From assembly GCA_021774875.1 (NCBI GenBank), contig JAJFIP010000174.1:1-46292 (forward strand): a DNA stretch of 46,292 nucleotides. Reading direction: 5' to 3'. Under the pieces are notes generated by a model. That model did not search any database and had not been told where the DNA came from. It worked only from the letters and a program-made list of their open reading frames with translations. The position numbers and the translations under genes are program-made. Shown here one piece after another: positions 22,267 to 46,112 of the stretch; positions within the stretch are counted from its first letter, which is position 1; the number at the start of each line of letters is the position of its first letter. This DNA comes from Emcibacter sp. (GTDB lineage: Bacteria; Pseudomonadota; Alphaproteobacteria; Sphingomonadales; Emcibacteraceae).

Positions 22267-22393
22267 TTTCCGACCCCTTATTTTTTCGAATTGAATCCTG
22301 TTTATGGTACATATTGTGTACCTGTTTGGCCAATAACTCAATATACTTGTGAAAAAATTTACCCGTAAGCTATCAAATAATATGACTTTTAAG

Positions 22394-22966: not shown

Positions 22967-23550
22967 GATGTTTCTCCCACTTTGCGATAACCGAAAAAAG
23001 AAATGGTGACTTTCAATGACTCTGCCTGATTATTTTCCGCAGCGCGGCGTTGTGAAAGAGCCTTTATGTCCACCTCTTCAATAAAGAGGTAAGGACGCTG
23101 GGTTTCAATAACGTAAAGTATTTTTTGCAGGTTTATGGTGTTCACAGTCATACTCGCCCGCATGGAAATTTTCTCCAGTGACTGCTCATTAGCCGATGGC
23201 ATCATCTGTGTCGTTTCCAGACGCCCGCCTGCATTACCGACTATCTGTTTCAGTCGCGTCTGCAACTGGGCACCCACAAGGGCAACACTGTCTCCTGACA
23301 GAAGAGCAACGGATTCCAGAGCTGCGCCCTGAAGTTCTTCCAGACGCTGACGCAATACTCCCTCACTGCCAATAGCCTGCGTATAACTGGCCTGTGCATT
23401 TTCAAGATTTGCCAGCCGCTCATTACTGCTGAGATAAAGTGTCAGAAAAATCCAGACAATCCCCCCCGCGACAACAGACAAAAGCCCAACCGCCAGAATA
23501 CGCCGGAAAGTACGGCTTTCCATTAAATTCTGTTCAAGAATATTTGTCAT
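22963..23550 (-). CDS. gspM: Type II secretion assembly protein GspM
   Basis: A 195-residue bitopic inner-membrane protein with one transmembrane helix (about residues 17-38), a coiled-coil segment and a ferredoxin-like periplasmic domain, as in GspM/PilO. It pairs with GspL to hold the GspE ATPase to the inner membrane. The start overlaps the gspL stop by four bases and its own stop overlaps the next start by four bases, so this is one tightly coupled operon. Confidence 0.85.
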   Translation of the reverse strand: MTNILEQNLMESRTFRRILAVGLLSVVAGGIVWIFLTLYLSSNERLANLENAQASYTQAIGSEGVLRQRLEELQGAALESVALLSGDSVALVGAQLQTRLKQIVGNAGGRLETTQMMPSANEQSLEKISMRASMTVNTINLQKILYVIETQRPYLFIEEVDIKALSQRRAAENNQAESLKVTISFFGYRKVGETS

Positions 23551-24671
23551 TTCCCCCCCTCCTCTGTTACTGGTGCATTTTGTGAGGGCATATTCACATC
23601 CGCTGCCACCTGAAATCTTTCAACATTCTTGTCTTTTTGCTGGACTACTGCAGAAATGAAATGGACATTGTCAAATAATGGCGAAGTTTCCAGATCTTCA
23701 AGCACCCCGGAGGCAGTTGCCGAATATCCAAAAATCTGGATACCATCTTTCGTTACAGTGAGTTGTTCAAGCCAGGTATCATCCGCGAGCAGTGCCGAAA
23801 TTTCACTTACCAGCTGAATAGCAAGCGGGCTGCTATTTTTCTTGTCGACCAGATAATGGACATCTTTTTTGAGGCTTTCATAATCCCGTTTCAATTGTAC
23901 AGAAGAGCGCGCCTGAAATTTGCTGTCACCAATATTTTGCTCCAACCCCGAAATTTGATAGTGGTTATACGCCGTGGGCAAAACGGCCAGAAGACAAATA
24001 GCAGCAGCTGTCAGCCACCCTTGCACAGGCCAGCGCATTTCCTGCCGACGTGCCACTTTCGCGCCGGGCAGATTTATTTCTTCAAAAGGTCGCGCAGAAA
24101 CATCGCTGATTTCCAGACAGTCCACTTCTACTCCGCTCAGCCTCAGAAGTCCCAGAAACCCATCACACTTGACTTTGGGGACAATGAATATATCCAGATT
24201 TATTTTTTCAGTGGTATATTCTTCAGGATTCAGCTGATAGTCAAAATATACCTGATCAGCAGGATAAGGAACGAGCCTGTCTATCTGATTAACCAAAATT
24301 TCCCCAATGTCGCCAAGAGCAGCGCGCGGTAGCCTCATGGGTTTTGCAAGGCAATATTCCCGGGGCAATCGTACTATAGTCCGCCACCTGACCCTGGGGG
24401 TCACGGACGCTAGAAAATCTTTGATTTCATTAGAAGATTTATTTTCATCAGCCAGGGAAATCTGCTTCTGTTCCTTCCATTTCTGCCCTTCCCGGGTTGA
24501 AAGATGCAACATGTCTCCCACAAGACTGAAATGCAGAATATCTGCCTCTGCCCGGTTTCTGCCAGCAATCAGTTCCTGCCAGATTTCCTGTAGCTCACCC
24601 GTCCACCAGACCCAAAAATGAGTTGGTGGGGCCAGAATCTTCTTTAGCAGATTATTATATCTGTCTTTCAT
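23547..24671 (-). CDS. gspL: Type II secretion platform protein GspL (PilM/PilN-like)
   Basis: A 374-residue protein from ATG 24671; a TTG one codon earlier is possible. The cytoplasmic N-terminal domain (about residues 45-200) has the actin-like/PilM-like pattern with L-V-P-Y-P-A-D, which recruits GspE. A single transmembrane helix lies at about residues 217-236, followed by a PilN-like periplasmic domain (W-L-x-x-L-T-V near residue 300). Overlaps gspM by four bases. A gap of about 80 bases separates it from gspK. Confidence 0.88.
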   Translation of the reverse strand: MKDRYNNLLKKILAPPTHFWVWWTGELQEIWQELIAGRNRAEADILHFSLVGDMLHLSTREGQKWKEQKQISLADENKSSNEIKDFLASVTPRVRWRTIVRLPREYCLAKPMRLPRAALGDIGEILVNQIDRLVPYPADQVYFDYQLNPEEYTTEKINLDIFIVPKVKCDGFLGLLRLSGVEVDCLEISDVSARPFEEINLPGAKVARRQEMRWPVQGWLTAAAICLLAVLPTAYNHYQISGLEQNIGDSKFQARSSVQLKRDYESLKKDVHYLVDKKNSSPLAIQLVSEISALLADDTWLEQLTVTKDGIQIFGYSATASGVLEDLETSPLFDNVHFISAVVQQKDKNVERFQVAADVNMPSQNAPVTEEGGK

Positions 24672-24754
24672 CAACTCTCATCTGATTATTTTGCCCTAAT
24701 GGAATCTCAGCATACATTATTATTAATTTTCTGACATAATAAAATGCTAACCCG

Positions 24755-25657
24755 TTACCTCACCTCCAAAATCCAGTAGGGTAACTGACCCGGTGGCGGG
24801 CTTTTCCGGTCGTCTTCCCCCAGCCAGATTACGAGCCTGCTTTCATAGCTTTGCCCGGATGGCATAACCGCACGGCCCATCAGGGTATAGACTGTTACAG
24901 TATCTTTATCAGTATAATCTGTCACCCCGGCCAGAGTGGGAAGTTCTTCCCCTGAACCACTCAGAGGTTCCCTTTCCCGGGATTCAAGAAATTCATCCAC
25001 CTCCCCCTGCCTAACCCCCGGCAACGCCCGTAATGCCCCTTCCCCGGCAAAATTCGGATTGATAGTCGTTTTATAGGAATAAACTGTCACAGAAGGTAAG
25101 ATAAGTTTGGAAATTTCCTGATCTACGCCAAGAAGCTGCTGAAATTCCAAAACTGACCTGAGCGGCATGTTTGATGGCCCATAACCCGCCTTATCCAATT
25201 CATAATCGTTGAATTCCGCCCCCTGTAACCGTGACAGGTCGTCCTCATCCTGCCAGTCGCGCAACTGATCCAGCAGTTCTTCTGCTGTGATGTCATCCCT
25301 ATCCTGAACAATAGTTTGAAATAACCCCATAAGCAATTCATCGGACGCGCTGTTGAGATCAATTTTTCCGCCTTCGGACTGAATGGAAAAAAACAACTGC
25401 GCCCCAGCGTAGGCAAATTCATATTCCTGCCCGTCCAGTTTCCAGCTCTGTGTCTGCCCCGGATTAAACAGAGCATGAATTCCCCGCTGAAGGGCGGCTT
25501 CGGACAGGGCTTTGACCTTATATTGTCCCGTAGCCGTTGATAACATACTACTTCCGGTGCGCACTTGCCCTGAAAATCCTATCACCATCAGGGACAGCAA
25601 GGCTAATACCCAAACCACCAATACCAGTGCAAAACCCTGTTTTTTCAGATCAGACAT
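24755..25657 (-). CDS. gspK: Type II secretion minor pseudopilin GspK
   Basis: A 300-residue protein with a short leader KKQG-F and a hydrophobic helix (ALVLVVWVLALLSLM). As in the GspK family, the glutamate at position +5 after the cleavage site is missing (Leu instead). The large periplasmic domain contains the KIDLNSAS motif, an RDWQDEDD calcium-type region and helix-hairpin-helix-like L-x-x-L-P-G-V. GspK caps the pseudopilus tip with GspI and GspJ, which are encoded 8 kb away. It starts 3 bases after the gspG stop. Confidence 0.93.
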   Translation of the reverse strand: MSDLKKQGFALVLVVWVLALLSLMVIGFSGQVRTGSSMLSTATGQYKVKALSEAALQRGIHALFNPGQTQSWKLDGQEYEFAYAGAQLFFSIQSEGGKIDLNSASDELLMGLFQTIVQDRDDITAEELLDQLRDWQDEDDLSRLQGAEFNDYELDKAGYGPSNMPLRSVLEFQQLLGVDQEISKLILPSVTVYSYKTTINPNFAGEGALRALPGVRQGEVDEFLESREREPLSGSGEELPTLAGVTDYTDKDTVTVYTLMGRAVMPSGQSYESRLVIWLGEDDRKSPPPGQLPYWILEVR

Positions 25658-25660
25658 GCG

Positions 25661-26086
25661 CTAATTATGAACATCGCTATTTTCATCTTCGCCACCTTCC
25701 GTCCCGTCAGCACCGAGGGAATAGAGATCAAAGGGTTTTGTGTCCCCAGGAATATTATAGCCATATTCATTGCCCCAAGGGTCTAGGGGGACTGTATCAC
25801 TACTCAGATAAGGCCCATTCCAGAAATCTACACCCGATGGTTCTACAACCAGCGCCTCAAGCCCTTCACTCTGATTTGGGTATCTGCCCACATCAATCAT
25901 GAATAGATCAAGGGCCGCTCCCATCTGGGAAATTTGCAGTCTGGATGTATCTGTTTTAGCCGTGGACAGGTAATTAATCACCCTTGGGCCGACAATGCCA
26001 ACCAGCAACCCCAGAATGACCATCACCACCAAAAGCTCGACCAGAGTAAATCCGTCTTCCCTGCTTTTCCGCTTTAAATATTTCAT
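25661..26086 (-). CDS. gspG: Type II secretion major pseudopilin GspG
   Basis: A 141-residue protein with the class III prepilin leader RKSREDG-FTLVE, Glu at +5 and a long hydrophobic helix. The globular part has the GspG-type calcium-site loop (DPWGNEYGYNIPG) and the PNQSEGLEAL segment. It polymerises into the pseudopilus after processing by GspO. The gene lies 11 bases after gspF and 3 bases before gspK. Confidence 0.95.
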   Translation of the reverse strand: MKYLKRKSREDGFTLVELLVVMVILGLLVGIVGPRVINYLSTAKTDTSRLQISQMGAALDLFMIDVGRYPNQSEGLEALVVEPSGVDFWNGPYLSSDTVPLDPWGNEYGYNIPGDTKPFDLYSLGADGTEGGEDENSDVHN

Positions 26087-26097
26087 GTATCCCTCTT

Positions 26098-27330
26098 TTA
26101 TAATGCAAGCTGATTAACGCTCATTATTCCGACAAGAATCGATATGATAATTCCTCCAATGAGTATTCCAAAGATAAAAATCAACAGCGGTTCAAGAATG
26201 GCCAGCAACCGTTTGATGCTTCGTTCAACTTCTTCATCATAAATGGCTGCTACATCGGCAAGTATCTGATTCAGCCGTCCAGATTCTTCCCCTACCCGGA
26301 TCATATGAACCGCAAGACGTGGAAAATTACCGTCCTCAATCAGAGGGGCAGAAAGGCTTTCTCCAGCCCTTAGACTTTCCGGTATCCGGGATACAACCTG
26401 TGCCATAACCCGATTGATCAATATGCCCTGAACATTGTGTAACGCCGATAACATGGGCACGCCATTATGCAAGAGAATAGACAATGTGCGGCAAAAACGC
26501 GCCGCCTCCATCTTGCGTATCAGGTCGCCAAAAAGCGGACTTGCCAGAAGCGTTCGGTCCACCTGCCGGGCAAATTTATTAATTTTAAGCAATTTCGGCA
26601 GAAAAACCCCGGCGCCCAGTATAAGTATAAGTGCCACTCCCCAGTTATTGCCAAGCCATTGTGAAACATCAATCACAATACGGGTAGCGACTGGAATAGT
26701 ATCCATTGCCCCCCTGAAAAGATTTTCAAATTGCGGTATGACAAACAAAAGCAACATGAAAAGCGAGACGAAAGATACCAGCAGCAAGATGGCCGGATAG
26801 GTTAAAGCCCCAATAATATTGGATCGCATGGTCTGCATCCGAACCATATATTCTGCCAGATGATCCAACACATCACCCAATGCGCCACCCACTTCACCGG
26901 CACGCACCAGACTTACATAAAGTGGCGTAAAGGGAGCACCCTGGGCTTCCAGGGCCTCGGAAAATAGTTTTCCTGACCGAATGGATTTCAGGAGGCGGGC
27001 CACAAGATCTGACATTTCCGGCATTTCGGAAATATCGGTTAATATTTCAAGAGAACGTTCCAGCGAAACTCCCGCCCCGATCATATTGGCAAGCTCGCGG
27101 GTCATATTCGTTATTTCCCGCATCCCGGGAGATTTTTTCAAAAAAGGAAGACCGGAAAACATGCCGCCCTTACGTCCTGCTTGCTTTATCTGGTCTGCCT
27201 GTTCTGCTGTGACCGGAAGCCAGCCTTTATCCTGAAGCTTGCTGATCACTTCAGCGCGGGTTCTTCCTTTGATCTTTCCCGTCAGAACCTCGCCTGTATC
27301 ACTTATGGCCTTGTATGAATATTCCCTCAT
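26098..27330 (-). CDS. gspF: Type II secretion inner-membrane protein GspF
   Basis: A 410-residue polytopic protein with two T2SSF domains (about residues 70-195 and 270-395), each with the G-x-x-L-x-x-x-L pattern, and three transmembrane segments (about 175-200, 225-245, 380-405). The N-terminal YSYKAISDTGE motif is typical. It forms the core of the inner-membrane platform driven by GspE. One base separates it from gspE. Confidence 0.95.
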   Translation of the reverse strand: MREYSYKAISDTGEVLTGKIKGRTRAEVISKLQDKGWLPVTAEQADQIKQAGRKGGMFSGLPFLKKSPGMREITNMTRELANMIGAGVSLERSLEILTDISEMPEMSDLVARLLKSIRSGKLFSEALEAQGAPFTPLYVSLVRAGEVGGALGDVLDHLAEYMVRMQTMRSNIIGALTYPAILLLVSFVSLFMLLLFVIPQFENLFRGAMDTIPVATRIVIDVSQWLGNNWGVALILILGAGVFLPKLLKINKFARQVDRTLLASPLFGDLIRKMEAARFCRTLSILLHNGVPMLSALHNVQGILINRVMAQVVSRIPESLRAGESLSAPLIEDGNFPRLAVHMIRVGEESGRLNQILADVAAIYDEEVERSIKRLLAILEPLLIFIFGILIGGIIISILVGIMSVNQLAL

Positions 27331-27331
27331 A

Positions 27332-29020
27332 TCAATGCTCTCGGGTTATGCGGCGAACTTCTTCAATGGTGGTCAGCCCCCGAAGTGCCTTGTCTATACC
27401 GTCTTCAAACATGGTAATCATACCCGCTTCAATGGCTGCTTCCTGAATATCGGTTGTTGCCGCCTTTTGCAGTATGAGCTTGCGGATATTTTCATCAACC
27501 ACCAGAATTTCATATATCCCCAATCGACCCACATATCCCTGACCACCACAGGCTTTGCAGCCTACAGGTCTGTAAAGCCTGATGTTTTGATAATTTTCCA
27601 CATGTTTATCGAGCCCCATTCTTTTGCTAAAAGATGCCGGCGGGCTGTATTCTTCGCGGCATTGCTCACAAAGAGTACGTACGAGCCGCTGGCCGACAAC
27701 ACCGTTTACGGTGGAGGTCAGCAGATAATCCTCAACCCCCATATCAAGTAGCCGGGTGATCGCCCCGGCGGCATCATTGGTATGAAGGGTCGACAGCACC
27801 ACATGACCTGTCAAGGATGATTGCACGGCAATTTCTGCGGTTTCCAGATCGCGCATTTCCCCGATCATAATGACATCCGGATCCTGACGAACGATAGAAC
27901 GCAGTACATTGGCAAAAGAAAGGCCAATATTGGCATTAACCTGCACCTGGGTAATCCCGTTCAACTGATATTCGATAGGGTCTTCCACCGTAATAATCTT
28001 GCATTCAGGTTTATTCAGAAGTTTAAGGGCGGTATAAAGTGTTGTGGTTTTTCCGCTTCCCGTCGGGCCGGTTACCAGCAAAATGCCGTGACGTTGACTC
28101 ATCACAGCCATAAAACGCTCATGAAGCAATTTACCCATGCCCAGGCTTTCAAATTCAAGCTTTACCGCATTGTCTTCCAATATACGAATAACCGCGCTTT
28201 CGCCGTAAAGACTTGGCAGGATGGAAACCCTCAAGTCTATGGGTTTGCCTTGAATTTGAAGACTGACCCGGCCATCCTGAGTCAATCGTCGTTCGGCAAT
28301 ATTCAGGTTGGCCATAATCTTGATGCGTGAAATAATGGCCGGGGTCAGCTCCACAGGCGGCGAGTCAACCTCGCGCAATACGCCATCAACACGGTAGCGG
28401 ATAACCAATTGATTTTCATAAGGTTCAATATGAATGTCCGAAGCCCGCTCTTCCAATGCAGTGCTGATAATCCGATTAACCAACCGGATCACCGGGGCTT
28501 CACTGGCCATATCCTTGAGCTTTTTTATGTCATCATCGGTAACATCACCAAAATCAACATCAATATCCTTTAGAATACCACTGAGGGAGCCTTCCCCTTC
28601 CTCATAAGCTCTTTCAAAAGCCCGCTCTATATCCCGTGGCAGGCCAATTTTTATCCGCACTGCTTTGCCAAGCGCATGTTCAAGGGCCTCAATAGTAAAA
28701 CTGTCCGAAGGGTCTGCCATAGCGACCACCACATGATCGCCTTCGTCGGAAAGCGGCATTACCCGTGAGGATTTCAGAAAATTTCCGGATAGAGTTCCAT
28801 TGAACAAAGGCTGGTCGGGATAGTCATCGCTGTCGGCTTCCGGCAGGTCATATTGTTTTGAAAAAGCCTTTGCCAGATTCTGTTCGGACACCAGTTCCAG
28901 CTTTATAAGAATCTCACCAGTAGATTGACCCAGTTCATCGGTCGCAGCCTGCACGCGGTCATAACCTTCCTGATCAAGAAGGCCCATTTTCATGAGAGTA
29001 TCGCTGATCGAATTTGTCAA
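27332..29020 (-). CDS. gspE: Type II secretion ATPase GspE
   Basis: A 562-residue hexameric ATPase that powers pseudopilus assembly. The N1E/MshEN-like N-terminal domain is followed by the Walker A GPTGSGKTT (residues 318-326), the aspartate box EDPIEY (about 346), the Walker B DPDVIMIGEMRD (380-391) and the His box TGHVVLSTLHTND (404-416). The C-terminal domain has two CxxC pairs (CEQC, CKAC), the zinc-binding C4 element. First gene of the eight-gene T2SS operon, behind a good promoter at 29107-29135. Confidence 0.96.
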   Translation of the reverse strand: MTNSISDTLMKMGLLDQEGYDRVQAATDELGQSTGEILIKLELVSEQNLAKAFSKQYDLPEADSDDYPDQPLFNGTLSGNFLKSSRVMPLSDEGDHVVVAMADPSDSFTIEALEHALGKAVRIKIGLPRDIERAFERAYEEGEGSLSGILKDIDVDFGDVTDDDIKKLKDMASEAPVIRLVNRIISTALEERASDIHIEPYENQLVIRYRVDGVLREVDSPPVELTPAIISRIKIMANLNIAERRLTQDGRVSLQIQGKPIDLRVSILPSLYGESAVIRILEDNAVKLEFESLGMGKLLHERFMAVMSQRHGILLVTGPTGSGKTTTLYTALKLLNKPECKIITVEDPIEYQLNGITQVQVNANIGLSFANVLRSIVRQDPDVIMIGEMRDLETAEIAVQSSLTGHVVLSTLHTNDAAGAITRLLDMGVEDYLLTSTVNGVVGQRLVRTLCEQCREEYSPPASFSKRMGLDKHVENYQNIRLYRPVGCKACGGQGYVGRLGIYEILVVDENIRKLILQKAATTDIQEAAIEAGMITMFEDGIDKALRGLTTIEEVRRITREH

Positions 29021-32693: not shown

Positions 32694-33179
32694 ATGCACG
32701 GTATTTTTTCACGATTTACTATTTTTTTAATCTGTCTGGCTCTCTGCTCAATGCCGGTCAATGCCCAGAAAAGAAAAAAAAACAAGGGAAACAGAATGGG
32801 TAGGGACCGGGCAGCTTCAGAATGTATAGACAAAACCGACCCTACGCTGACCTTCATTCTTGATGGAGAGGAAATCTGGGTCCACACCCCTGAAGAGGTC
32901 ATGGCTCTGCCCGTAAGACAGGAAATTGACAAAGGAAAAAAAGAAACAATTATTATTGTTAAAATGATAGACCTGCTTCCCGAAGGCTGGTCCGGCGGCA
33001 GGGTAAGTTTTATCAGTTGTAAAGGCCAGCGGATTAATGTACCCGCACCGCACCTGAAGAAAAGAGGTGGCCGTTATATTATCACTAAAAACCGAAAAGG
33101 CTTTTTAAAGCTCAGCCTCAATAATGAGAAGGCTGGCAAGGTACTTATGCGTGATTTGCGCAAAATTGATGTCAGGTAG
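32694..33179 (+). CDS. Small exported protein resembling a fragment of the Moco-binding oxidoreductase fold
   Basis: A 161-residue protein starting 3 bases after modC, with a signal peptide ending near VNA-Q (residue 24) and a very basic stretch just after it. The order LTFILDGEEIWVHTPEEVMALP, then VKMIDLLP, then VSFISCKGQRINVP parallels the sulfite-oxidase/Oxidored_molyb domain pattern of a first strand, then L-x-x-L-L, then a strand ending in a G-x-x-(V/I) turn. The cofactor residues are not clearly present and the protein is shorter than that domain. Its position at the end of the mod operon supports a molybdenum-linked role. Function is not established. Confidence 0.75.
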   Translation: MHGIFSRFTIFLICLALCSMPVNAQKRKKNKGNRMGRDRAASECIDKTDPTLTFILDGEEIWVHTPEEVMALPVRQEIDKGKKETIIIVKMIDLLPEGWSGGRVSFISCKGQRINVPAPHLKKRGGRYIITKNRKGFLKLSLNNEKAGKVLMRDLRKIDVR

Positions 33180-33885
33180 GTGGGGGTTCCACATTTCTGC
33201 ATAAACTCACCGGCAGCGGTTCCGGTGCCAGACATGTCCCGTCCATATTCACTCTGACTGGCACAATCAGGTCAGGCCAGCTTTCCCTACCCTGTCCTGA
33301 AAATTTAAATCTTATCAGTTCAGGAAAACTGTCCACCCCCTGCCAGCTCGATGACCAGACATTTTCCTGCCCGTTCTGACTCCCCCCGTAATATCCAAAA
33401 GCAGCCCCCGTTGCCAACTGATCTATCAACAGGGTTCTGCTATCAGGATTAAAATTATCTGTGAAATCTTCTTCTGCTTCATAGGGCTGGCGATAAAGGA
33501 TTAGCTGTTGTCTGTTCTCGCCATCTTCCACAGGGGTACTTTCAATGGCAAATTCCACCAGATACAATCCGCCGCGGGAGGGATAGGGTGGCATAAAAGC
33601 AGCAAATCTGATTCTTGAGCTAGTGCCGGAAAAAACATATTCATTCTCGCCGGTAATGTCATTAACCACGGGATACATCCGGCTCATCCAGTCGTTGGAA
33701 ATCCGGTAAAATGCCTGCATGTCGGAAAGTCTGTCAGTCTGGTCACTGCTGCGTTCCCAGGCCCGGCTGCCAAACTGCAGCCCACTGAATAAAACCACCA
33801 TCAGAACGCCCATAATGCTTAAGACCACCAACAGTTCGATGAGGGTAAATCCAGCTTGTTTCCGCCCCAAAGTCACAAAACCCAT
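33172..33885 (-). CDS. gspJ: Type II secretion minor pseudopilin GspJ
   Basis: A 237-residue protein with prepilin leader GRKQAG-FTLIE (Glu at +5), a hydrophobic helix and the GspJ-type beta domain (D-x-M-x-x-x-Y-P-V and L-Y-R-Q motifs). It is a tip pseudopilin that assembles with GspI and GspK. Starts on the last base of the gspI stop (TAATG). Its 3' end overlaps the 3' end of the convergent plus-strand gene by 8 bases. Confidence 0.9.
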   Translation of the reverse strand: MGFVTLGRKQAGFTLIELLVVLSIMGVLMVVLFSGLQFGSRAWERSSDQTDRLSDMQAFYRISNDWMSRMYPVVNDITGENEYVFSGTSSRIRFAAFMPPYPSRGGLYLVEFAIESTPVEDGENRQQLILYRQPYEAEEDFTDNFNPDSRTLLIDQLATGAAFGYYGGSQNGQENVWSSSWQGVDSFPELIRFKFSGQGRESWPDLIVPVRVNMDGTCLAPEPLPVSLCRNVEPPPT

Positions 33886-34310
33886 TATGGCTCTCCCAAG
33901 ATGTAGCGCAGACTATTGAGCGTCACCTCTTGCTCGCGCAACCCTGTCTGCCAACTGACTCTGACAGATATGTCATATAATTCACCTAATGGGCTGGCAA
34001 CATCCACGTCCCCCACTTCCGGCTCCCCCACTTCCGGCTCATAGGGATTAATTTCAATTTTCCAGTCATATCCCTGATCTGTGCTGCCCTGCTGGATGCC
34101 TTGACGCAATGGCAGGTTATGGCCAAGGTCATTCATCAGAGCTTCGGCCTGTAGCATGGCTCTGAAATTATTTCCCCCGGTATTGACCCTGCGCAAACCG
34201 CCAGAAAATATTTCCAATATCAGGCCAAGGGAAATGGCCAGAATTGTCAAGGCGACTAGCACCTCCATCAGAGAAAATCCTGTCGCCTGGTTATTCTGAT
34301 TTTTTTTCAT
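33885..34310 (-). CDS. gspI: Type II secretion minor pseudopilin GspI
   Basis: A 141-residue protein with leader NQATG-FSLME (Glu at +5) and helix VLVALTILAISLGLILEIF, typical of GspI, which nucleates the pseudopilus tip. Its globular domain contains a duplicated PEVGE/PEVGD segment from a perfect 15-bp tandem repeat. Overlaps gspH by 20 bases and gspJ by one base. Confidence 0.9.
   Translation of the reverse strand: MKKNQNNQATGFSLMEVLVALTILAISLGLILEIFSGGLRRVNTGGNNFRAMLQAEALMNDLGHNLPLRQGIQQGSTDQGYDWKIEINPYEPEVGEPEVGDVDVASPLGELYDISVRVSWQTGLREQEVTLNSLRYILGEP
34011..34040 (-). repeat. Perfect 15-bp tandem duplication in gspI
   Basis: CCCCACTTCCGGCTC occurs twice head to tail (34011-34025, 34026-34040 on the plus strand). 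It keeps frame and encodes two copies of a five-residue PEVG(E/D) segment. Confidence 0.9.
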
Positions 34311-34773
34311 GATCCATCACAACTTTTCCAGTAAGCCAGTTCACAGCAATACGGTAATTGGTCTCACCCTGACTTAGCCGCACATAGCCGCCGGTCGAAG
34401 AACCATCAGGGAAAAAACGAATTGCGGCTGTATCATTTTCACCCTGTTCACTTTTTGCCGTATAAATTTCCACTTCCATCCCCTTGGGAAATTTCTGGTG
34501 AGTAGCAGAATCCTCCGTCCAGAATTCTCCTTGGGTTATATTGAGAAAAAACCTAACTTCACTGCTAGACCTGATGGCCTGAGAGCGGCTTTCAATCATC
34601 TGCATCATCACACCTCGGGCGGCAGTTTTTATCTCAAGGGTTTCCCTGCTGCCGGACAGTGATACCAAAACCACCGAACTCATCAGCCCGATGATGCTCA
34701 GCACCACAAGAAGTTCCAGTAGCGTGAAACCCTCATTGGTTCCATATTTTTGTCCATGACGACGAATAGCCAC
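34291..34773 (-). CDS. gspH: Type II secretion minor pseudopilin GspH
   Basis: A 160-residue protein with leader GTNEG-FTLLE (Glu at +5), a hydrophobic helix and the GspH-type beta domain. First gene of the gspH-I-J operon. It is divergent from the ECF-like gene across a 128-base gap in which no strong promoter is evident for either side. Confidence 0.88.
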   Translation of the reverse strand: MAIRRHGQKYGTNEGFTLLELLVVLSIIGLMSSVVLVSLSGSRETLEIKTAARGVMMQMIESRSQAIRSSSEVRFFLNITQGEFWTEDSATHQKFPKGMEVEIYTAKSEQGENDTAAIRFFPDGSSTGGYVRLSQGETNYRIAVNWLTGKVVMDHEKKSE

Positions 34774-37753: not shown

Positions 37754-38509
37754 TCAGAGCAATGATAATGGACCGTATAACCATGTCAGCCAAAGCCCCA
37801 CAGACAGATAACTGCCAAAGGGGATTTTCTGGAAGCGATCCGGGGATTTTTTCTCAATTACCCCAAGACTAAAGGTCGCCAACAGGGCCAGAAGCGTGGA
37901 AATGATCAGAATAGTGCCAAGGCCATCAATACCAACCCAGGCCCCCGCAGCGGCAAATAATTTCACATCACCCTGCCCCAGGCCTTCCCGCTGACGGATG
38001 AGGCCATAGAGATAGCTCAAGCCCCCCAAAATAACTGCCGCCACCACCATGCCCACCAAATGCAAAACCAGTCTGTCCGGATTTAACAAAGCTATCATCC
38101 CAAGGCCACCAACTATCAGGGGCAAGGTAATGGCGTCTGGCAGGATAAAATTTCTCCAGTCAATAACGGCAAGCGTCAACAACGCCCAGCCCAACAAACA
38201 ACTTATTACAAAAACCATACCCGTAGTCACAAGGGCAGCCCATAAAACTGCAAGTAAGGCGGCTATTTCCATTAGCGGGTAAAAGGCAGGAATCCTTTTG
38301 GCACAATAGGCACATTTACCGCGCCACAAGACATAGGAAATGAGCGGTATCATATACCAGAATGCCAGAATATGACTACATTCAGGGCATTTTGAACGGC
38401 CAGTCACCAGTCTCTCCCCCAAAGGCAGTCTCAGGATAACCACGCCCAGAAAACTGCCGATAAACGGCGAAATGAGGATCAGTAGCGGGTTATAAAATTC
38501 AGGTGCCAA
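37754..38509 (-). CDS. gspO: Prepilin peptidase/N-methyltransferase GspO (PilD)
   Basis: A 251-residue polytopic membrane protease that cuts the leaders of GspG, H, I, J and K and methylates the new N-terminus. The N-terminal cytoplasmic loop has two zinc-type Cys pairs (Cys41/44 and Cys66/69). The catalytic aspartate motifs are VIDWRNFILPD (Asp117 to Asp125) and GQGD (Asp181). The start is TTG 38509, inside the end of the upstream B3/B4 gene (11-base overlap), so translation is probably coupled. It is the only T2SS gene in this third piece of the locus. Confidence 0.93.
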   Translation of the reverse strand: MAPEFYNPLLILISPFIGSFLGVVILRLPLGERLVTGRSKCPECSHILAFWYMIPLISYVLWRGKCAYCAKRIPAFYPLMEIAALLAVLWAALVTTGMVFVISCLLGWALLTLAVIDWRNFILPDAITLPLIVGGLGMIALLNPDRLVLHLVGMVVAAVILGGLSYLYGLIRQREGLGQGDVKLFAAAGAWVGIDGLGTILIISTLLALLATFSLGVIEKKSPDRFQKIPFGSYLSVGLWLTWLYGPLSLL

Positions 38510-39300: not shown

Positions 39301-40926
39301 TTATTTAGGTGTTATGCAGGAAAAATTCTCGGCTTTATCAGTATCGCCTTTGCCAGAGTATCTGGCAACCTGTGGATGGGGACACAAAGGTCGTGAACGG
39401 ACCGTAACGCCCTCTCCGTCAACCTGTTTGGCGATCATGGCATCTGGTGCCACTCCCTTTTCCACCCAAGACTCAATTGCCGTTATCGGATCGAAGCGTT
39501 CAGCACTCTGGTGGGGTGCTTCCAGACAATGTCCGGCACCGGGAACCATAAAGAGCCTGAAAAAATCATCGGCAGTTGCTTTGCCACCGGACAGCTTAAC
39601 CACATCCTCGTAATACCCGATAGTGGCACCGGGAGATGCGCCGGGATCGCTCCAGCCCTGCCACATGATGGCCTTGCCACCCGCTGCCTTGAACTTGCTC
39701 AAATCCGGATTGTCGGCACGATAGACGGGCCGCATGAAATCGAGTTCTTTTGGATATTTATTGAGATCGAAATCATGGAGCGAATAGGTCGGACCGGGAT
39801 CTTGTTCAAACAATACATAGCGGAACAGATTATCCAGATATAACTCCATGACACCCTTGCGACCTGGCGGAACCAGCCATTTCGGCCAGTAGGCTTCCGA
39901 CCCGTAAGCCAGATTATAATGCCAGTCGACACCATGATTATCAGGTAGCCCACCATACCACTTTTGCAATACCCCAACCTGTTTAGTGGTCAGGCAGCTA
40001 TCGCTAGTACTGCCAGCCTTACATTGTAGTTGGCCAGGGTCAAATTTACATTGGGGAGGATCAGCAATCAGATTGTCCTTCAACCCATCCTTGGCATCGC
40101 AGGCAGCCATGACAGCTTTTGCCACCATATCAACCTTGTCCAGCCCAAGGATAAGCTTTCCATCGGGGCCGGTATTGGATTGAATAGCCCATGCGCCGTG
40201 CATGGCCAGCGTACGCCAGTCAAGTGCTGGTGCGCCAATGATCACACCGTCGAATATATCAGGGAAACGCTGGGTTACCATCGCCCCCATGCGTCCGCCG
40301 TTGGAACAGCCTGAAAAGTAGGAATATTCTTGCTTGCGGCCATAAAAGGCCTGAATGATTTCTTTGGCCGCACCGGAAACAGCGGGCAGAACCCGCCAGC
40401 CCCAATCGCGCTCAGCAGCCCGGTTGTTGTAGGCCCATTCGCCATCAGCCGCATGAGCACCCCAATGACCGGCATCAGTGGTAATGACCGCATAATTGCG
40501 GGTCAGGGCCACGTTAATGCCGTTTGATAATCCCAACCGATCGGGCGAAACCTGGCCGCAAAAACCGCCGCAACCTGCCATGAAAAATTTTCCGTTCCAG
40601 TCCTTTACCGGTAGCCGCAGTTCAAAATTCATGGTTGGCAGCACATAACCCCGCACCCGGCAATATTCCGGCAGCGGTGGCCTGTCCTTGGCGCTCATGG
40701 CATGGCTTTTGCCATATCTGAGTGCAGCGGCGGGGAGTGGCTCACTGTTACCATCGACCACGGTTGCTGTGAGAATTGTTGTGTCGGTAAAGGTCTGATT
40801 GATCAGTGACGAGCATAGTGCTTCATTTTCAGATTCGGCTGTGGCTACTCCCGGCATGATAAACATCGCGAGCAGCAGAAGAGCCGGGATCATTAGAACC
40901 CGGCTCTTTGTGCGTGGCGTAACCAA
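39301..40926 (-). CDS. Tannase/feruloyl-esterase family secreted hydrolase
   Basis: A 541-residue protein with a signal peptide (cut near ATA-ES, residue 30). The alpha/beta-hydrolase core carries GCSNGG (nucleophile Ser208 next to Cys207) and GAGHCLEAP (catalytic His next to Cys), the CS-D-HC disulfide-linked triad of the tannase family, which cleaves aromatic or phenolic esters. The frame can only begin at TTG 40926, directly after the stop of the TonB receptor gene; ATG 40893 would remove the basic start of the signal peptide. A strong hairpin (40879-40908) covers the start region. It forms an operon with the receptor upstream, which suggests the ester is a nutrient. Confidence 0.88.
   Translation of the reverse strand: MVTPRTKSRVLMIPALLLLAMFIMPGVATAESENEALCSSLINQTFTDTTILTATVVDGNSEPLPAAALRYGKSHAMSAKDRPPLPEYCRVRGYVLPTMNFELRLPVKDWNGKFFMAGCGGFCGQVSPDRLGLSNGINVALTRNYAVITTDAGHWGAHAADGEWAYNNRAAERDWGWRVLPAVSGAAKEIIQAFYGRKQEYSYFSGCSNGGRMGAMVTQRFPDIFDGVIIGAPALDWRTLAMHGAWAIQSNTGPDGKLILGLDKVDMVAKAVMAACDAKDGLKDNLIADPPQCKFDPGQLQCKAGSTSDSCLTTKQVGVLQKWYGGLPDNHGVDWHYNLAYGSEAYWPKWLVPPGRKGVMELYLDNLFRYVLFEQDPGPTYSLHDFDLNKYPKELDFMRPVYRADNPDLSKFKAAGGKAIMWQGWSDPGASPGATIGYYEDVVKLSGGKATADDFFRLFMVPGAGHCLEAPHQSAERFDPITAIESWVEKGVAPDAMIAKQVDGEGVTVRSRPLCPHPQVARYSGKGDTDKAENFSCITPK
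40879..40908 (-). promoter_or_regulatory. Intercistronic hairpin at the start of the tannase-family gene
   Basis: A perfect 10-bp stem (AAGAGCCGGG / CCCGGCTCTT) with a 10-base loop begins about 18 bases after the receptor stop. The only early ATG of the esterase frame (40893) lies in the loop. There is no T-run after it on the minus strand, so it is more likely an mRNA-stability or translation-control hairpin than an intrinsic terminator. Confidence 0.6.
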
Positions 40927-43188
40927 TTAATAAGTCCAGCTTACAGTAAAGCCCCACATTCTTGGTGGTGCAAACAGGGCGAAACCGGAACCCGCAACAT
41001 CGAAATTCTGAAGCTGGTAGGTTTCATCGAACAAATTTTTCGACCAGACCGAAAATTCGAGATTTCGATCGGTCAGTTCATATGTCAGACGGGCGTCTAC
41101 AACCTGATAGGAGGGTATAGCAGTAATGGGGGATGCTGGAATATCATCATTTGTCTCACTGGTATAGCGATAATTCAGATTTAAAGATACCAGACCATTA
41201 TCACCCACTGGCTGACTCATATCAACACTGAAAGAAAGCGTATGTTCTGGTGAAGTTGCCAGACTTTCACCAATGGCTAATAGATCATCGCCAGTATTAG
41301 AACCAAATTCCTTAATCTCGGTATTCAAATAACCATAGCTGCCGGAAAACTCGAGCCAGGGTGTCGCAAGAACAGTCCATTCTGCCTCAATACCCCAGAT
41401 ATCGGCTTTACCTGCATTGGCCGTTCTGAAGCTGCCCACCGGGTTTTCTGGTGTGGAAACAAACAGGGCGACCTGAAGGTCTGTGTAATTAATGAAAAAC
41501 CCACTGACATTCAGACGAATCCGGTCATCCATCCATTGGGATTTGACACCGAACTCATAGTCAATGGCAAATTCAGGGTCAAACGGGGTAGCGGCAGAAT
41601 CTGGCTCAGAAGGCTGGCCCTGAAAGCCACCACTCTTGAATCCACGGGTGACACTGGCAAACAACAGCACATCTTCGGTCGCTGTATAATCGACACCCAC
41701 TTTCCATGTAAGCGCGTTCCATGTTTTACTTGCTGAAATATCAAACAACTCGGTTATGGTGCTACCGGGTCCGCCGATAAAACCAGCCGTGCTGTCATTG
41801 CTAAAATCTTTCTTTTCCGTGGTGTAACGCAGTCCACCGGTAATATTGAGTTTGTCGGTCACGGCGTAGGTTGCTTCACCAAAAACAGCAAAGCTATCGA
41901 GGATGTTCGCCTGATCAAATATATTCAATGAGGCGAAGTTTGGAACCGTGCCCGGAGGAAAACCAAGAATAGTGGAAAGATCAAGAACCGGCTCGACGGT
42001 TTCCACGCGAACCGCATCTTCATGCAGGTAATAGAGACCCCCGACCCAAGTCAGGCTTTCGCCTTCGGGTGAAGCCAGGCGTATTTCCTGACTGAATTGT
42101 TTGGATGTTTCAGTGGACCTGTCGTCCCCGTTCAGCGTGCCCTGAATGAAAAATGGCGCGATGCCGTCGTTGGTTGTCAAGCCCAGAGGGTCAGTGACCC
42201 AGTCAAAATCTGTGCGCCGGAAAGCAGTGATTGATGTCAGATGTCCGTAGCCTGTATCCCAATCCAGATTACCGTGAATACCCCATAGGTCACGATTTGA
42301 AAGGCCGGTCACATCGCCGACAAAATTCCGGGGATTTTCGATACCACCACCTGCGGCACTGGCAATTGCTCCCGCCGCGCCAGTAATTGGTATGCGGGCA
42401 TCGCCAGCCAGACGGTCGCGGGTGTAATCGGCACTGAGCATGAATTCGGTTGCATCGTTAATCTTAAACAAAAGCTGACCACGCATACTGCTGGTATTTT
42501 CGTCCATCATGTCTTCGCCTAGTTGCAGGCCAAAAGTATGTCCGTCCCGGTCGCGGGAGCTAAAGGCAAATTTTGCGTTTACACTGTCACTCAGGGGACC
42601 AGAAGCCATGGCTCTGATATCAATACGTTTGAAATTACCAACGGAGGCTTCGCCGCGAAGCACGAGTTCATCGCTAGGTTTGCTGGTGACCACATTAATG
42701 GCACCACCGACAACATTTTTGCCGTATAGAGTGCCCTGCGGTCCACGTAGAACTTCGATGCGCTCCAGATCATACAAGTCAAAAACCTGTGATGCGCCGC
42801 GCGCCATATAAACACCATCAAGAAAAACCGCAACGGAATTATCACCGCCGGCGCCGTCTTCGTTGGAGCCGATGCCGCGCATGGTAAGGCCGGGCTGACC
42901 GACACTGAATAAGGTCACATTGAAGCCCGGTGTCCGTGCAGCGATTTCATCCATACGGAAAATACGGGATTTACGCATCTGTTCGGCACCGAGTACGGTT
43001 ACCGAAATTGGTACCTTTTGCAGGCTCTGCGACCTTTTTTGTGCGGTAACGGTAATCTCCTCGATGGCGAATTCATCGTCATCATCTGCAGCCATTGCAG
43101 CAGAGAAGGCATAAGGCGTAATTGTCGCCAAGCCCGTTGCTAACGCAACCATTGATACCGTTTGTCGTGTCGTGAATTTAGTGCTCAT
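40927..43188 (-). CDS. TonB-dependent outer-membrane receptor
   Basis: A 753-residue protein from ATG 43188, chosen because AAGGAGG sits just before it; the frame extends to 43215. A signal peptide (about residues 1-33, ending near AMAAD) leads into a TonB-box-like EEITVTAQKR, a plug domain (VPISVTVLGAEQM to VVGGAINVVT) and a 22-strand-type barrel ending in the aromatic VSWTY. The sequence is of the large family used for carbohydrate, aromatic or lipid-like substrates rather than a clear siderophore receptor. It has its own promoter with an operator shared with the acyl-CoA dehydrogenase operon. The esterase follows directly. Confidence 0.93.
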   Translation of the reverse strand: MSTKFTTRQTVSMVALATGLATITPYAFSAAMAADDDDEFAIEEITVTAQKRSQSLQKVPISVTVLGAEQMRKSRIFRMDEIAARTPGFNVTLFSVGQPGLTMRGIGSNEDGAGGDNSVAVFLDGVYMARGASQVFDLYDLERIEVLRGPQGTLYGKNVVGGAINVVTSKPSDELVLRGEASVGNFKRIDIRAMASGPLSDSVNAKFAFSSRDRDGHTFGLQLGEDMMDENTSSMRGQLLFKINDATEFMLSADYTRDRLAGDARIPITGAAGAIASAAGGGIENPRNFVGDVTGLSNRDLWGIHGNLDWDTGYGHLTSITAFRRTDFDWVTDPLGLTTNDGIAPFFIQGTLNGDDRSTETSKQFSQEIRLASPEGESLTWVGGLYYLHEDAVRVETVEPVLDLSTILGFPPGTVPNFASLNIFDQANILDSFAVFGEATYAVTDKLNITGGLRYTTEKKDFSNDSTAGFIGGPGSTITELFDISASKTWNALTWKVGVDYTATEDVLLFASVTRGFKSGGFQGQPSEPDSAATPFDPEFAIDYEFGVKSQWMDDRIRLNVSGFFINYTDLQVALFVSTPENPVGSFRTANAGKADIWGIEAEWTVLATPWLEFSGSYGYLNTEIKEFGSNTGDDLLAIGESLATSPEHTLSFSVDMSQPVGDNGLVSLNLNYRYTSETNDDIPASPITAIPSYQVVDARLTYELTDRNLEFSVWSKNLFDETYQLQNFDVAGSGFALFAPPRMWGFTVSWTY

Positions 43189-43217
43189 GATTTCCTCCTT
43201 AAGCGATGTTTTCACTC

Positions 43218-43245
43218 AATATAGCGAGTAGCGATCAAGAGTCAA
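43218..43245 (-). promoter_or_regulatory. Leftward promoter of the TonB receptor gene
   Basis: On the minus strand TTGACT (43245-43240), a 16-base spacer and TATATT (43223-43218) end 30 bases before ATG 43188. The -35 box is the end of the operator-like sequence 43241-43256. Confidence 0.6.
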
Positions 43246-43256
43246 GTATTACTCAA
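43241..43256 (-). promoter_or_regulatory. Operator-like site, copy 1 (TonB receptor promoter)
   Basis: On the minus strand the site reads TTGAGTAATACTTGAC. It matches copy 2 at 43779-43794 (TTGAGTATCACTTGAC) in all 13 bases outside the three-base centre. In both copies its end forms the -35 box. Confidence 0.6.
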
Positions 43257-43289
43257 CTTTGGAGTAAAACTATCTTAATTAGGTAAACT

Positions 43290-43667
43290 TCAACCACTAT
43301 TGCCAGTTTGGCGCATCCACGTGGCGGCGTCGAAATAATCCCGCCATATTTTGATCTTGTCGCCTTCTAACTGAAAGACACCATTGCAGGGCAACTCGAC
43401 TGTCTTGCCCTGTATGATAAAGCGATCAAGCCGTTCTGCCATGACATGGTCACCAGTTTTTGCAATGTTCAGAATCTGCCAGTCAACCTTTTCGGCAGGG
43501 TCGATGAATTGTTCAATGACCTGGCGGATTGCAGTCAGTCCGCTGACGGGAGCCATGGGCATGTTGTGATAAACACTGTCGGTTGAGAAGAAAGCCATTA
43601 TCTTATCGATGTCTTTCCTGTTAAAGGCCGCAACCAGTGCCTTTACAACTGCAATTCCAGAATCCAT
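43290..43667 (-). CDS. Limonene-1,2-epoxide-hydrolase-family enzyme (SnoaL/NTF2 fold)
   Basis: A 125-residue single-domain protein. It has the catalytic pattern of limonene-1,2-epoxide hydrolases: Tyr33-x-Asn35, Arg79-x-Asp81 and Asp110 in WRDYFD, which hold and activate the water that opens an epoxide. It is slightly shorter than the founding enzyme. AAGGAG precedes the ATG at 43667. It lies between the receptor gene (same strand, separate promoter) and the divergent acyl-CoA dehydrogenase operon, which suggests a step in the same pathway. The substrate is unknown. Confidence 0.83.
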   Translation of the reverse strand: MDSGIAVVKALVAAFNRKDIDKIMAFFSTDSVYHNMPMAPVSGLTAIRQVIEQFIDPAEKVDWQILNIAKTGDHVMAERLDRFIIQGKTVELPCNGVFQLEGDKIKIWRDYFDAATWMRQTGNSG

Positions 43668-43778
43668 ATTCGCTCTCCTTATCTTATGTTAACGCTGTAC
43701 CTGTCATTCAATCTATTGGCTACTAAATCACTTTGCCTAGTTGAAGCAGCCCCTCGATTATTGTCATATGCTAGGTTA

Positions 43779-43794
43779 TTGAGTATCACTTGAC
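43779..43794 (+). promoter_or_regulatory. Operator-like site, copy 2 (acyl-CoA dehydrogenase promoter)
   Basis: TTGAGTATCACTTGAC overlaps the -35 box of the rightward promoter in the same register as copy 1 overlaps the leftward promoter. A repressor binding here would block both. Confidence 0.6.
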
Positions 43795-43817
43795 AATAAA
43801 GTTTTACTAATTATAAC
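43790..43817 (+). promoter_or_regulatory. Rightward promoter of the acyl-CoA dehydrogenase operon
   Basis: TTGACA (43790-43795, perfect consensus), a 16-base spacer and TATAAC (43812-43817) leave a leader of about 85 bases before ATG 43909. Confidence 0.65.
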
Positions 43818-43908: not shown

Positions 43909-45066
43909 ATGGGACAAATTTTCACGGAAGACCACGATCAATTTCGCCATTCACTGCGCAGCTTTGTTGAAAAGGAAATCACCCCCAACGTTCTTGAATG
44001 GGAAGCAGAAGGACAGGTTCCCCGTTCATTTTTCAAGAAATTGGGCGACCTTGGGTTTTTGGGCATACGTCTGGGCGAAGAGTATGGCGGCAGTGGCCTC
44101 GATTTCTTGTATACGACGGTGCTGGTACAGGAATTGATGCAGTGCGGCTCAGTCGGGGTTCCGGTGGCGGCAATGGCACATGCTGAATTTGCCACCAAAA
44201 TTATAGAACGTGCAGGCTCTGACGATCTGAAGGACGAATATCTGCGCGATGCCGTCGCCGGAAATATCATTGGTGCGTTGGGTTTGACTGAACCAGGAGC
44301 CGGTTCGGATGTTGCAGCCATAAGGACCAGAGCCGTACGAGATGGTGATGATTATGTCATCAATGGCTCTAAGGTTTTTATCACCAATGGGACGATCGCG
44401 GATTTCATCACCACGGGTGTACGCACAGGTGAAGATGGATATACTGGGATGTCCCTGCTTGTTGTACCTGCTGATACCAAGGGCCTCACCCGCAGGCGAC
44501 TGAAGAAGATCGGTACCCATTCATCAGATACTGCGGAATTATTCTTTGATGATTGCCGTGTGCCCGCCCGCAACCTGCTGGGGCCGGAAGGCGGTGGTTT
44601 CAAGCCGCTGATGCAGGGCTTCGAGGGCGAACGGATGGTGCTATCTGTCATAGCCTGCGCGCAAATGCGTCTGATGTGGGAAGCGGCACGCCAGCATGGA
44701 CATGACCGCAAGGCATTCGGCCAGACATTGCTTGAATTTCAGGTCTGGCAACATCGCCTGGCCGATGTGATTACTTCGATCGAAGCGGCTGAGGCACTGA
44801 TGTACCGGGGCATTGATATGTATGTAAGGGGCGAGCCCTGTAACGCAGAAATTTCCATGTCCAAGCTATTCGCAACAGAAACCGCACTTACGGTGGCACG
44901 TGAATGTGCGCAAATTCATGGCGGCATGAGCCATATGGAAGAATGTGGCATGGCGCGGCTTTATCGCGACTCTCTGGCCTTTACCATTGGAGCCGGAACA
45001 TCCGAAGTCTTGCGTACCATTATCGCAAATGACAAGGGGCTAGCTAAACGGAGGGATCACAAATGA
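43909..45066 (+). CDS. Acyl-CoA dehydrogenase (isovaleryl/long-chain type active site)
   Basis: A 385-residue FAD enzyme that introduces the alpha-beta double bond in an acyl-CoA thioester. Family motifs are GALGLTEPGAGSD (122-134) and VINGSKVFITNG (150-161). The C-terminal loop reads TIGAGTSEV, lacking the Glu used by medium- and short-chain enzymes. Instead Glu241 in FEGERMVL aligns with the helix-G catalytic Glu of isovaleryl-CoA dehydrogenase. This suggests a branched or bulky acyl substrate. CAGGAGAG precedes ATG 43909. The stop overlaps the next start by four bases. Confidence 0.93.
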   Translation: MGQIFTEDHDQFRHSLRSFVEKEITPNVLEWEAEGQVPRSFFKKLGDLGFLGIRLGEEYGGSGLDFLYTTVLVQELMQCGSVGVPVAAMAHAEFATKIIERAGSDDLKDEYLRDAVAGNIIGALGLTEPGAGSDVAAIRTRAVRDGDDYVINGSKVFITNGTIADFITTGVRTGEDGYTGMSLLVVPADTKGLTRRRLKKIGTHSSDTAELFFDDCRVPARNLLGPEGGGFKPLMQGFEGERMVLSVIACAQMRLMWEAARQHGHDRKAFGQTLLEFQVWQHRLADVITSIEAAEALMYRGIDMYVRGEPCNAEISMSKLFATETALTVARECAQIHGGMSHMEECGMARLYRDSLAFTIGAGTSEVLRTIIANDKGLAKRRDHK

Positions 45067-46112
45067 GCGAACGCTCAGTTGTCATTGCCGGCACGGGCCA
45101 GGTCTGTCCGGTTGCTGAGGATAACAGATCCATCGCGGAAATGGTGCTGGAGGCAGTCGAGTCTGCATTGTCTGATGCTGGTATTGACCATAATGACATT
45201 GACAGTGTCGTCACAGCTTCGGTTGATATCATTGATGGGCTGACGGCATCAAATATTGCCGTGACCGAAGTCGTCGGTGCGGTGATGAAGCCCGAGACGC
45301 GTATTGCCGCCGATGGACTATGTGCTGCTATCCATGCCGCCTGTCAGATATGGTCTGGTGCCTATGATACCGTGCTGGTGGTTGCTCATGCCAAGACGTC
45401 TATGGCACCGTTCCAGGACCTTATGCAATGGGCAATGGATCCCATATATCTGCAGCCTTTAGGCGTAGATTTTCTGACCTGTGCCGGGTTACAGGCGCAA
45501 TTGATAGCAGCCGGGGATCCGGGAGCGGAGCGACGCTGGGCAGAAATTGCGGCACGACGAATCAATGCGGTATCCGATAATCTATCCCTGACAGAAGATG
45601 ATATACTTTCCTCGCCGATTTTGGCATCCCCCCTGCGCCGGGATATGTGTGCACCCATGGGCGACAGTGCTTGCGCAGTAGTACTCAGGGCAGATACAGA
45701 CAACAAGGATGGCAGACCCAGAATTTCCGGCATAGGCCACGATCTTGAGCCACACGGGTTGGGAGATCGGGATCTGCGCTCATGGTCTGGACTGAAACGT
45801 GCCAGCAATCGTGCCTATACCATGGCCGGGATAGATGACCCGGCAACAGCTTTTGAAGTGGTTGAGCCCTCATGCCTTTATCCTCACGAGGAGCAGCTAT
45901 TTTTAGCCGCAGCGGGACTTGATGAAAAGGCGAACTTATCGCTTTCAGGCGGTCTGTTTTCCGGACATGCCCCGATTGTGGCTGGTCTTTCCAGATTGGC
46001 CACGGCGAGTAAAGCTATTGAAGGCATCGATGGTAAAGCTCTCGCTCATGGCACTTGGGGCCCAGCGGGGCAAGGTCAGGCGGTTATTATTCTCGAAGGG
46101 GCAGGAGCATGA
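45063..46112 (+). CDS. Thiolase-like protein (SCP-x/SCP2-thiolase family)
   Basis: A 349-residue thiolase-fold protein. The nucleophile cysteine lies in ADGLCAAIHAA (Cys87), and C-terminal motifs are VEPSCLYPHEE and GGLFSGHAPIVAGLS, a variant of the thiolase GGxxxGHPxG motif. It is shorter than classical degradative thiolases. SCP2-type thiolases and their partner subunits cleave bulky 3-ketoacyl-CoAs, for example steroid side chains. It overlaps the acyl-CoA dehydrogenase and the next thiolase-like gene by four bases each, so the three are one coupled operon and the two thiolase-like proteins may form a heteromer. Confidence 0.85.
   Translation: MSERSVVIAGTGQVCPVAEDNRSIAEMVLEAVESALSDAGIDHNDIDSVVTASVDIIDGLTASNIAVTEVVGAVMKPETRIAADGLCAAIHAACQIWSGAYDTVLVVAHAKTSMAPFQDLMQWAMDPIYLQPLGVDFLTCAGLQAQLIAAGDPGAERRWAEIAARRINAVSDNLSLTEDDILSSPILASPLRRDMCAPMGDSACAVVLRADTDNKDGRPRISGIGHDLEPHGLGDRDLRSWSGLKRASNRAYTMAGIDDPATAFEVVEPSCLYPHEEQLFLAAAGLDEKANLSLSGGLFSGHAPIVAGLSRLATASKAIEGIDGKALAHGTWGPAGQGQAVIILEGAGA

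Follow-up and report, generated by a model that had tools for sequence, protein, structure and literature searches.

The window analysed here is a stretch of 46,292 nucleotides (positions 1 to 46,292 of contig JAJFIP010000174.1, C84 below) from the Emcibacter sp. assembly GCA_021774875.1 (G000; 3,896,601 bases on 398 contigs). Towards its end, the window carries a minus-strand operon encoding a TonB-dependent receptor and a tannase/feruloyl esterase family protein, a small SnoaL-like gene, also on the minus strand, and a plus-strand operon encoding an acyl-CoA dehydrogenase (ACAD1) and two thiolase-like proteins (Table 1). Copies of ACAD1 in three other genomes are 67-89% identical to it. Proteins of the cluster resemble models of cyclohexanecarboxyl-type dehydrogenases, with scores below the model cut-offs, which makes an alicyclic acid one guess for the substrate. 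Elsewhere in the window, type II secretion genes (secretin, M, PilN-like, K, G, F, and E) occupy three minus-strand stretches (20017-29020, 33172-34773, and 37754-38509), which also contain pseudopilin-like proteins and a prepilin peptidase; the set is interrupted by ABC transporter genes and two amino-acid-kinase genes. A gene for a 1740-aa protein with nine Glucodextran_B stretches (13657-18879, minus strand) adjoins the secretion genes, and an unannotated open frame of 4065 aa lies at 2-12196.

Table 1. Features of the cluster in the window and on contig C263 (prefixed coordinates).
Feature	Location	Strand	Evidence or remark
Tannase/feruloyl esterase family protein	39301..40926	-	Pfam PF07519, 3e-111; directly after the receptor
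TonB-dependent receptor	40927..43189	-	Pfam PF00593, PF07715; start is the ATG behind AGGAGG, frame open from 43215
TonB receptor operon promoter	43218..43245	-	TTGACT 43245-43240, 16-base spacer, TATATT 43223-43218; sequence and scan
Operator 1, TTGAGTAATACTTGAC	43241..43256	-	Exact match; overlaps the -35 box of the TonB receptor-tannase operon
SnoaL-like/limonene-1,2-epoxide hydrolase-like small protein	43290..43667	-	Pfam PF07858, 4e-22; PF12680
Possible reverse promoter, SnoaL-like gene	43768..43796	-	TTGTCA-17-TAGCAT, operator 2 in spacer; scan
Operator 2, TTGAGTATCACTTGAC	43779..43794	+	Exact match; overlaps the -35 box of the acyl-CoA dehydrogenase-thiolase operon
Acyl-CoA dehydrogenase operon promoter	43790..43817	+	TTGACA 43790-43795, 16-base spacer, TATAAC 43812-43817; sequence
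Acyl-CoA dehydrogenase ACAD1	43909..45066	+	Pfam PF00441/PF02770/PF02771
Thiolase-like protein A (lipid-transfer-protein type)	45063..46112	+	NCBIfam NF005924, 2e-47, below its cut-off
Thiolase-like protein B, first 61 codons	46109..46292	+	Cut by contig end; apparently continues on C263 (from comparison of the junction with the unbroken gene of G045)
TetR regulator	C263:1851-2471	-	Search with the Marinicaulis TetR; PF00440, 1.3e-16, residues 18-62
Operator 3, CTGAGTAACACTTGAC	C263:5907-5922		One mismatch; heads the operon ending in TetR

An exact-match search of the whole genome with TTGAGTNNNACTTGAC returned two copies, both in the window and on opposite strands. The two 16-mers stand where the sequence-only reading of this DNA had placed them and are identical at all 13 positions outside the central triplet. 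As it had also claimed, the end of each forms a -35 hexamer, with TATATT or TATAAC following after a 16-base spacer; each of these -10 boxes matches the consensus at five of six positions. The consensus promoter scan lists the promoter of the TonB receptor; the plus-strand promoter is absent from the scan because the latter demands a T at the last -10 position. The description of the two as divergent promoters is loose: the SnoaL/LEH-like gene sits between them. Operator 2 also falls within the spacer of the possible reverse promoter of this gene. The corresponding boxes (TTGTCA-17-TAG(C/T)AT), pointing to a divergent SnoaL or MFS gene and with the operator within the spacer, recur in two other places: at a further copy of the motif before an MFS gene on contig C263, and in genome G045 ahead of the SnoaL gene. 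A reverse box of equal score is present in a Marinicaulis MAG (G776), yet no SnoaL gene was found upstream there, which weakens this part of the mechanism. An extra TTGAGT half-site, without a matching second half, lies over the -10 box of the TonB receptor promoter (43214-43219, minus strand; TATATTGAGT).

The remaining six of the eight matches listed in the window have three mismatches each. The motif might have proved common at unrelated places; at zero mismatches, genome-wide, it is not. Three places in the genome differ from it at one position, one of which looks like a real third promoter copy (operator 3). When up to two mismatches are allowed over the whole genome, there is no enrichment (52 matches versus 91 for the reversed control pattern); weaker targets therefore cannot be called. 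Low-mismatch places were inspected on seven contigs of this genome. Those on C88, C224, C129, C295, and C362, and one of the two on C144, are inside open frames of at least 130 codons. The site on C208 (two mismatches) is between frames, before an amidase gene whose product is 39.5% identical to an amidase in genome G631; we did not count it because what appears by eye to be a strong terminator hairpin separates the site from the gene.

Two sigma-70 promoters with TTGAC in common could be alike by chance. The -35 core accounts for five of the 13 fixed bases, and a 13/13 match was reached in 2 of 2000 first-order Markov shuffles of the two intergenic stretches, so that the pair alone is just moderately surprising. 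It is the comparative sequence evidence given below, rather than the pair, that we take to settle the reality of the motif.

In a search for relatives of ACAD1, one close match was found among the 80 loci kept; it is 77% identical and is from the Marinicaulis MAG (the name Marinicaulis is now under Hyphococcus; Parvularculaceae, Alphaproteobacteria). An exact copy of the motif precedes ACAD1 in this MAG, and the operon contains a TetR gene. The best match of this TetR in the window's genome is 59% identical and is encoded on C263, the contig with operator 3. C263 starts with a thiolase-like protein B gene (open at the contig start), followed by genes for a ChsH2-like zinc-ribbon/OB protein and a small protein without a Pfam match. 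On the opposite strand follow, in order, TetR, a second acyl-CoA dehydrogenase (ACAD2), an enoyl-CoA hydratase, a DUF4442 thioesterase-like protein, and BKACE; the motif is ahead of BKACE, and the MFS gene faces away. C84 ends in ...VVISNMELFEGRAF and C263 begins with AFAAGKPCLKVATGG..., while the intact thiolase of G045 reads ...NMELFEGRALPELWVGEGAFATGKPC... across the corresponding junction. The contig ends thus appear to be the two parts of a single thiolase gene, from which an estimated 9-10 codons are absent. We infer the adjacency of the contigs from the match of this split gene to the intact G045 gene and not from an assembly result. The repressor that the sequence-only reading had predicted thereby gains a strong candidate in the TetR on C263, seemingly at the same locus past the contig end. 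A second TetR gene of this genome (L126:408-1067, on C382), whose product is 33% identical to the Marinicaulis TetR, is flanked, by eye, by hydratase-like and CoA-transferase-like genes.

TetR orthologues in three other genomes have 56-74% identity over the aligned parts. The carriers G000, G045, and G631 were found through genome searches, and the Marinicaulis MAG through its ACAD1. TetR searches of 385 genomes of the class and 398 of the phylum (both drawn evenly) added only G631; searches of the families around G631 (three genomes) and G045 (eight genomes) gave no further carriers, and a plasmid search for the TetR gave no matches. The motif, with T or C as its first base, precedes the orthologous ACAD1 in all four carriers, with operator 2 as the copy in G000. 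In G045, it is followed by ACAD1, thiolase A, thiolase B, the ChsH2-like gene and, further on, BKACE and an amidohydrolase, and a SnoaL-like gene faces away. The G045 TetR is on other contigs than the motif, as two non-identical fragments; these partial copies are at contig ends (L131:1-444 and L130:1-498) and may stem from two separate genes or from a mixture of strains in the assembly. The Marinicaulis MAG has a single operon headed by the motif, TetR included. G631, which is listed with 8% contamination, has three sites: CTGAGTAACACTCAA before an amidase gene, a perfect dyad CTGAGTATTACTCAG, and, three bases later, CTGAGTGAAACTTGAC before ACAD1; its TetR is on a different contig from these sites, with the rest of the cluster. 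The G631 amidase gene, with its own operator, lies ahead of the acyl-CoA dehydrogenase operon (C204, L167:8325-10682), and a fatty-acid-hydroxylase-like gene faces away at this locus.

Seven promoters in the four genomes were compared. The invariant columns are TGAGT...ACT..AC and one T downstream. The mean pairwise identity is 0.91 over the 13 fixed positions versus 0.31 over the 40 bases upstream and 0.38 downstream; within this comparison, operators 2 and 3 and the G045 site have flanks in common, so these three do not count as independent. The TetR copies all keep the DNA-reading segment SEAT(L/V)FFYF.

In the 396 genomes drawn from the order (G000-G395), YTGAGTNNNACTTGAC has nine matches in seven genomes. 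Four of these sites are in the two TetR carriers of the order, all at this cluster; among the 394 non-carriers, five genomes have one match each. About 3 kb were fetched around each of these five loci, and no relative of the 23 cluster reference proteins was found at an E-value of 1e-3. One of these matches falls within an unrelated open frame of a congeneric genome that is 62% complete, from which a TetR gene may have gone missing. A looser dyad, YTGAGTNNNACTYRA, has eight matches in the four carriers, seven of them at the cluster, against five matches for the reversed control. A match on C57 of the Marinicaulis MAG precedes a gene of Cro/CI-type HTH and is taken as chance. Around a one-mismatch site on C37 of this MAG, no relative of a cluster protein was found within the fetched 16 kb.

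Chance likeness of two promoters is very improbable in the light of these comparisons. TGAGT...ACT, upstream of the -35 box, is invariant in all seven promoters, and the exact motif is restricted genome-wide to its two window sites; the sites before ACAD1 orthologues and the order-wide specificity in practice refute this explanation. The two window sites might instead be copies of one recently duplicated promoter, which would be uninformative on regulation. Operator 3 starts with CTGAGT and has nearly the flanks of operator 2, over a long stretch, and these two are therefore not independent evidence; the flank identity of operators 1 and 2, however, is just 0.30 on the upstream side and 0.42 on the downstream side, and diverged genomes have kept the site. 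With the flanks of operators 1 and 2 this unlike, a recent duplication is hardly credible.

The TetR on C263 has the N-terminal TetR_N helix-turn-helix (PF00440), as do those of the Marinicaulis MAG and G631. The AlphaFold2 model (a monomer prediction) has a mean pLDDT of 85.5 and nine helices, and displays the fold expected of a TetR protein (all-helical, about 9-10 helices, with a C-terminal ligand and dimer domain). The Foldseek matches listed for the model are TetR-type regulators. FadR of Bacillus, AibR, and KstR2 are similar in predicted fold (query-normalised TM-scores of about 0.53-0.67) and share with this cluster a content of catabolic acyl-CoA genes, whereas they are distant in sequence (16-18% identity). 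For AibR and B. subtilis FadR, there are structures with bound acyl-CoA, judging by the structure titles. Since the predicted fold matches TetR structures that include acyl-CoA binders, an acyl-CoA of the pathway is a plausible ligand; the fold is common to the whole TetR family, so the ligand class is a guess.

The protein is distant from the named families. Its best NCBIfam match (5e-15) is RutR, the TetR regulator of pyrimidine catabolism, which is also among the best PDB sequence matches; at 55.8 bits versus an equivalog cut-off of 368, it is not RutR, and no pyrimidine genes are among those identified on C263 or the adjoining window stretch. The RutR operator also begins with TTGA. For KstR, the score is 20.8 bits against an NCBIfam equivalog cut-off of 280. 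A parallel in organisation is BkaR, the mycobacterial TetR repressor of branched-chain keto-acid genes, for which PMC3920632 describes a regulator gene beside its regulon, few sites per genome, acyl-CoA/keto-acid genes, a palindromic operator, and autoregulation. Here, too, the regulator gene is in an operon headed by the motif, on C263 and in the single operon of the Marinicaulis MAG. The BkaR operator core given there, GTTA(N)T(N4)A(N)TAAC, does not resemble TGAGTNNNACTCA, and regulation by BkaR is shown by experiment, whereas the regulon of the C263 TetR is predicted from sequence. FadP, PsrA, and LiuQ of Proteobacteria are likewise TetR regulators of fatty-acid or branched-chain degradation, with regulons described by comparative genomics; PMC5343134 describes FadP and LiuQ as occurring, of the classes it covers, in betaproteobacteria alone. 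Searches of an open-licence library of papers turned up no account of this operator, though one may exist, and none of the papers there on TetR, BKACE, and operons concerns this regulon by its title.

We consider it most probable (about 0.87) that the 16-mer is the operator of the local TetR repressor encoded on C263 and that this repressor controls three motif-headed operons. The motif, its positions, its conservation, its co-occurrence with the TetR gene, and the content of the operons form the direct basis; from these we infer binding by the C263 TetR and repression. Judging by the palindromic G631 site, the motif derives from a TetR-type dyad; its right half would have changed to ACTTGAC, two transitions from the dyad form, and so doubles as a -35 box. 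Six of the seven sites are imperfect dyads that match three to four of the six half-site positions, and the G631 amidase site matches five; the G631 dyad form suggests YTGAGTNNNACTCAR as the ideal repressor site. A TetR dimer would read TGAGT-N3-ACT(C/T)(A/G)A and, once bound, would keep RNA polymerase off the promoter, because the right half of the dyad overlaps the -35 hexamer TTGAC(A/T). Copy 1 would control the TonB receptor-tannase operon; copy 2 the ACAD1-thiolase-ChsH2-like operon and perhaps the divergent SnoaL gene; and copy 3 the BKACE-thioesterase-hydratase-ACAD2-TetR operon and perhaps the divergent MFS gene. As its gene closes the BKACE operon, TetR would belong to its own regulon. 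An acyl-CoA or acid of the pathway would release it from the operator.

The regulator could also act as an activator, or in both ways, by binding at the -35 region. Some TetR-family proteins activate, and the -10 boxes of the Marinicaulis MAG and G631 are weak (three of six in G631), as in activated promoters. The -35 hexamer within the motif, however, matches five or six of six consensus positions in six of the seven sites, and this near-consensus sequence and its position fit occlusion by a repressor; the -10 boxes of operators 1 and 2 are not weak either. We regard activation as unlikely. Less likely still is another regulator (a further TetR, or one of MarR/GntR type encoded elsewhere) that binds the motif while the C263 TetR has a different operator. 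The search with the Marinicaulis TetR gave 13 more TetR-like matches in this genome, the best of which, on C382, is by eye beside acyl-CoA-type genes. Against this, the motif tracks the presence of the C263-type TetR across genomes and is absent or randomly placed in the sampled genomes of the order that lack it, TetR sits in a motif-headed operon in two of the four carriers, and no other regulator was seen on C263 or among the 30 Pfam-scanned of the 54 listed window ORFs. The earlier proposal that one repressor co-regulates both window operons is thus supported at the level of sequence, and control by the C263 TetR remains the preferred reading. The least supported part of it is the predicted inclusion of the TonB receptor-tannase operon, for which the exact motif at its -35 box and its place at the same locus speak.

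The candidate regulator and the third operator are new relative to the sequence-only reading. The regulon itself is probably new but of a known kind, that is, ordinary local TetR control. We give about even chances to a fuller reading, in which a new TetR regulon serves an unnamed acid-degradation pathway (acyl-CoA dehydrogenases, BKACE, an amidohydrolase, hydratases, and a pair of thiolase-like proteins that have a ChsH2-like partner) with species-specific front-end enzymes, namely the TonB receptor and tannase-type esterase here and the amidase in G631, and in which a half-site of the operator is also the -35 box and, where genes diverge, one operator serves both promoters. Through this finding, an acyl-CoA pathway without an assigned role would gain a regulator, an operator, and a defined set of genes. 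An outer-membrane receptor and an esterase of the tannase type would also be linked to this pathway, and the search for the substrate may thereby be narrowed to an ester or amide of the acid that the cluster degrades.
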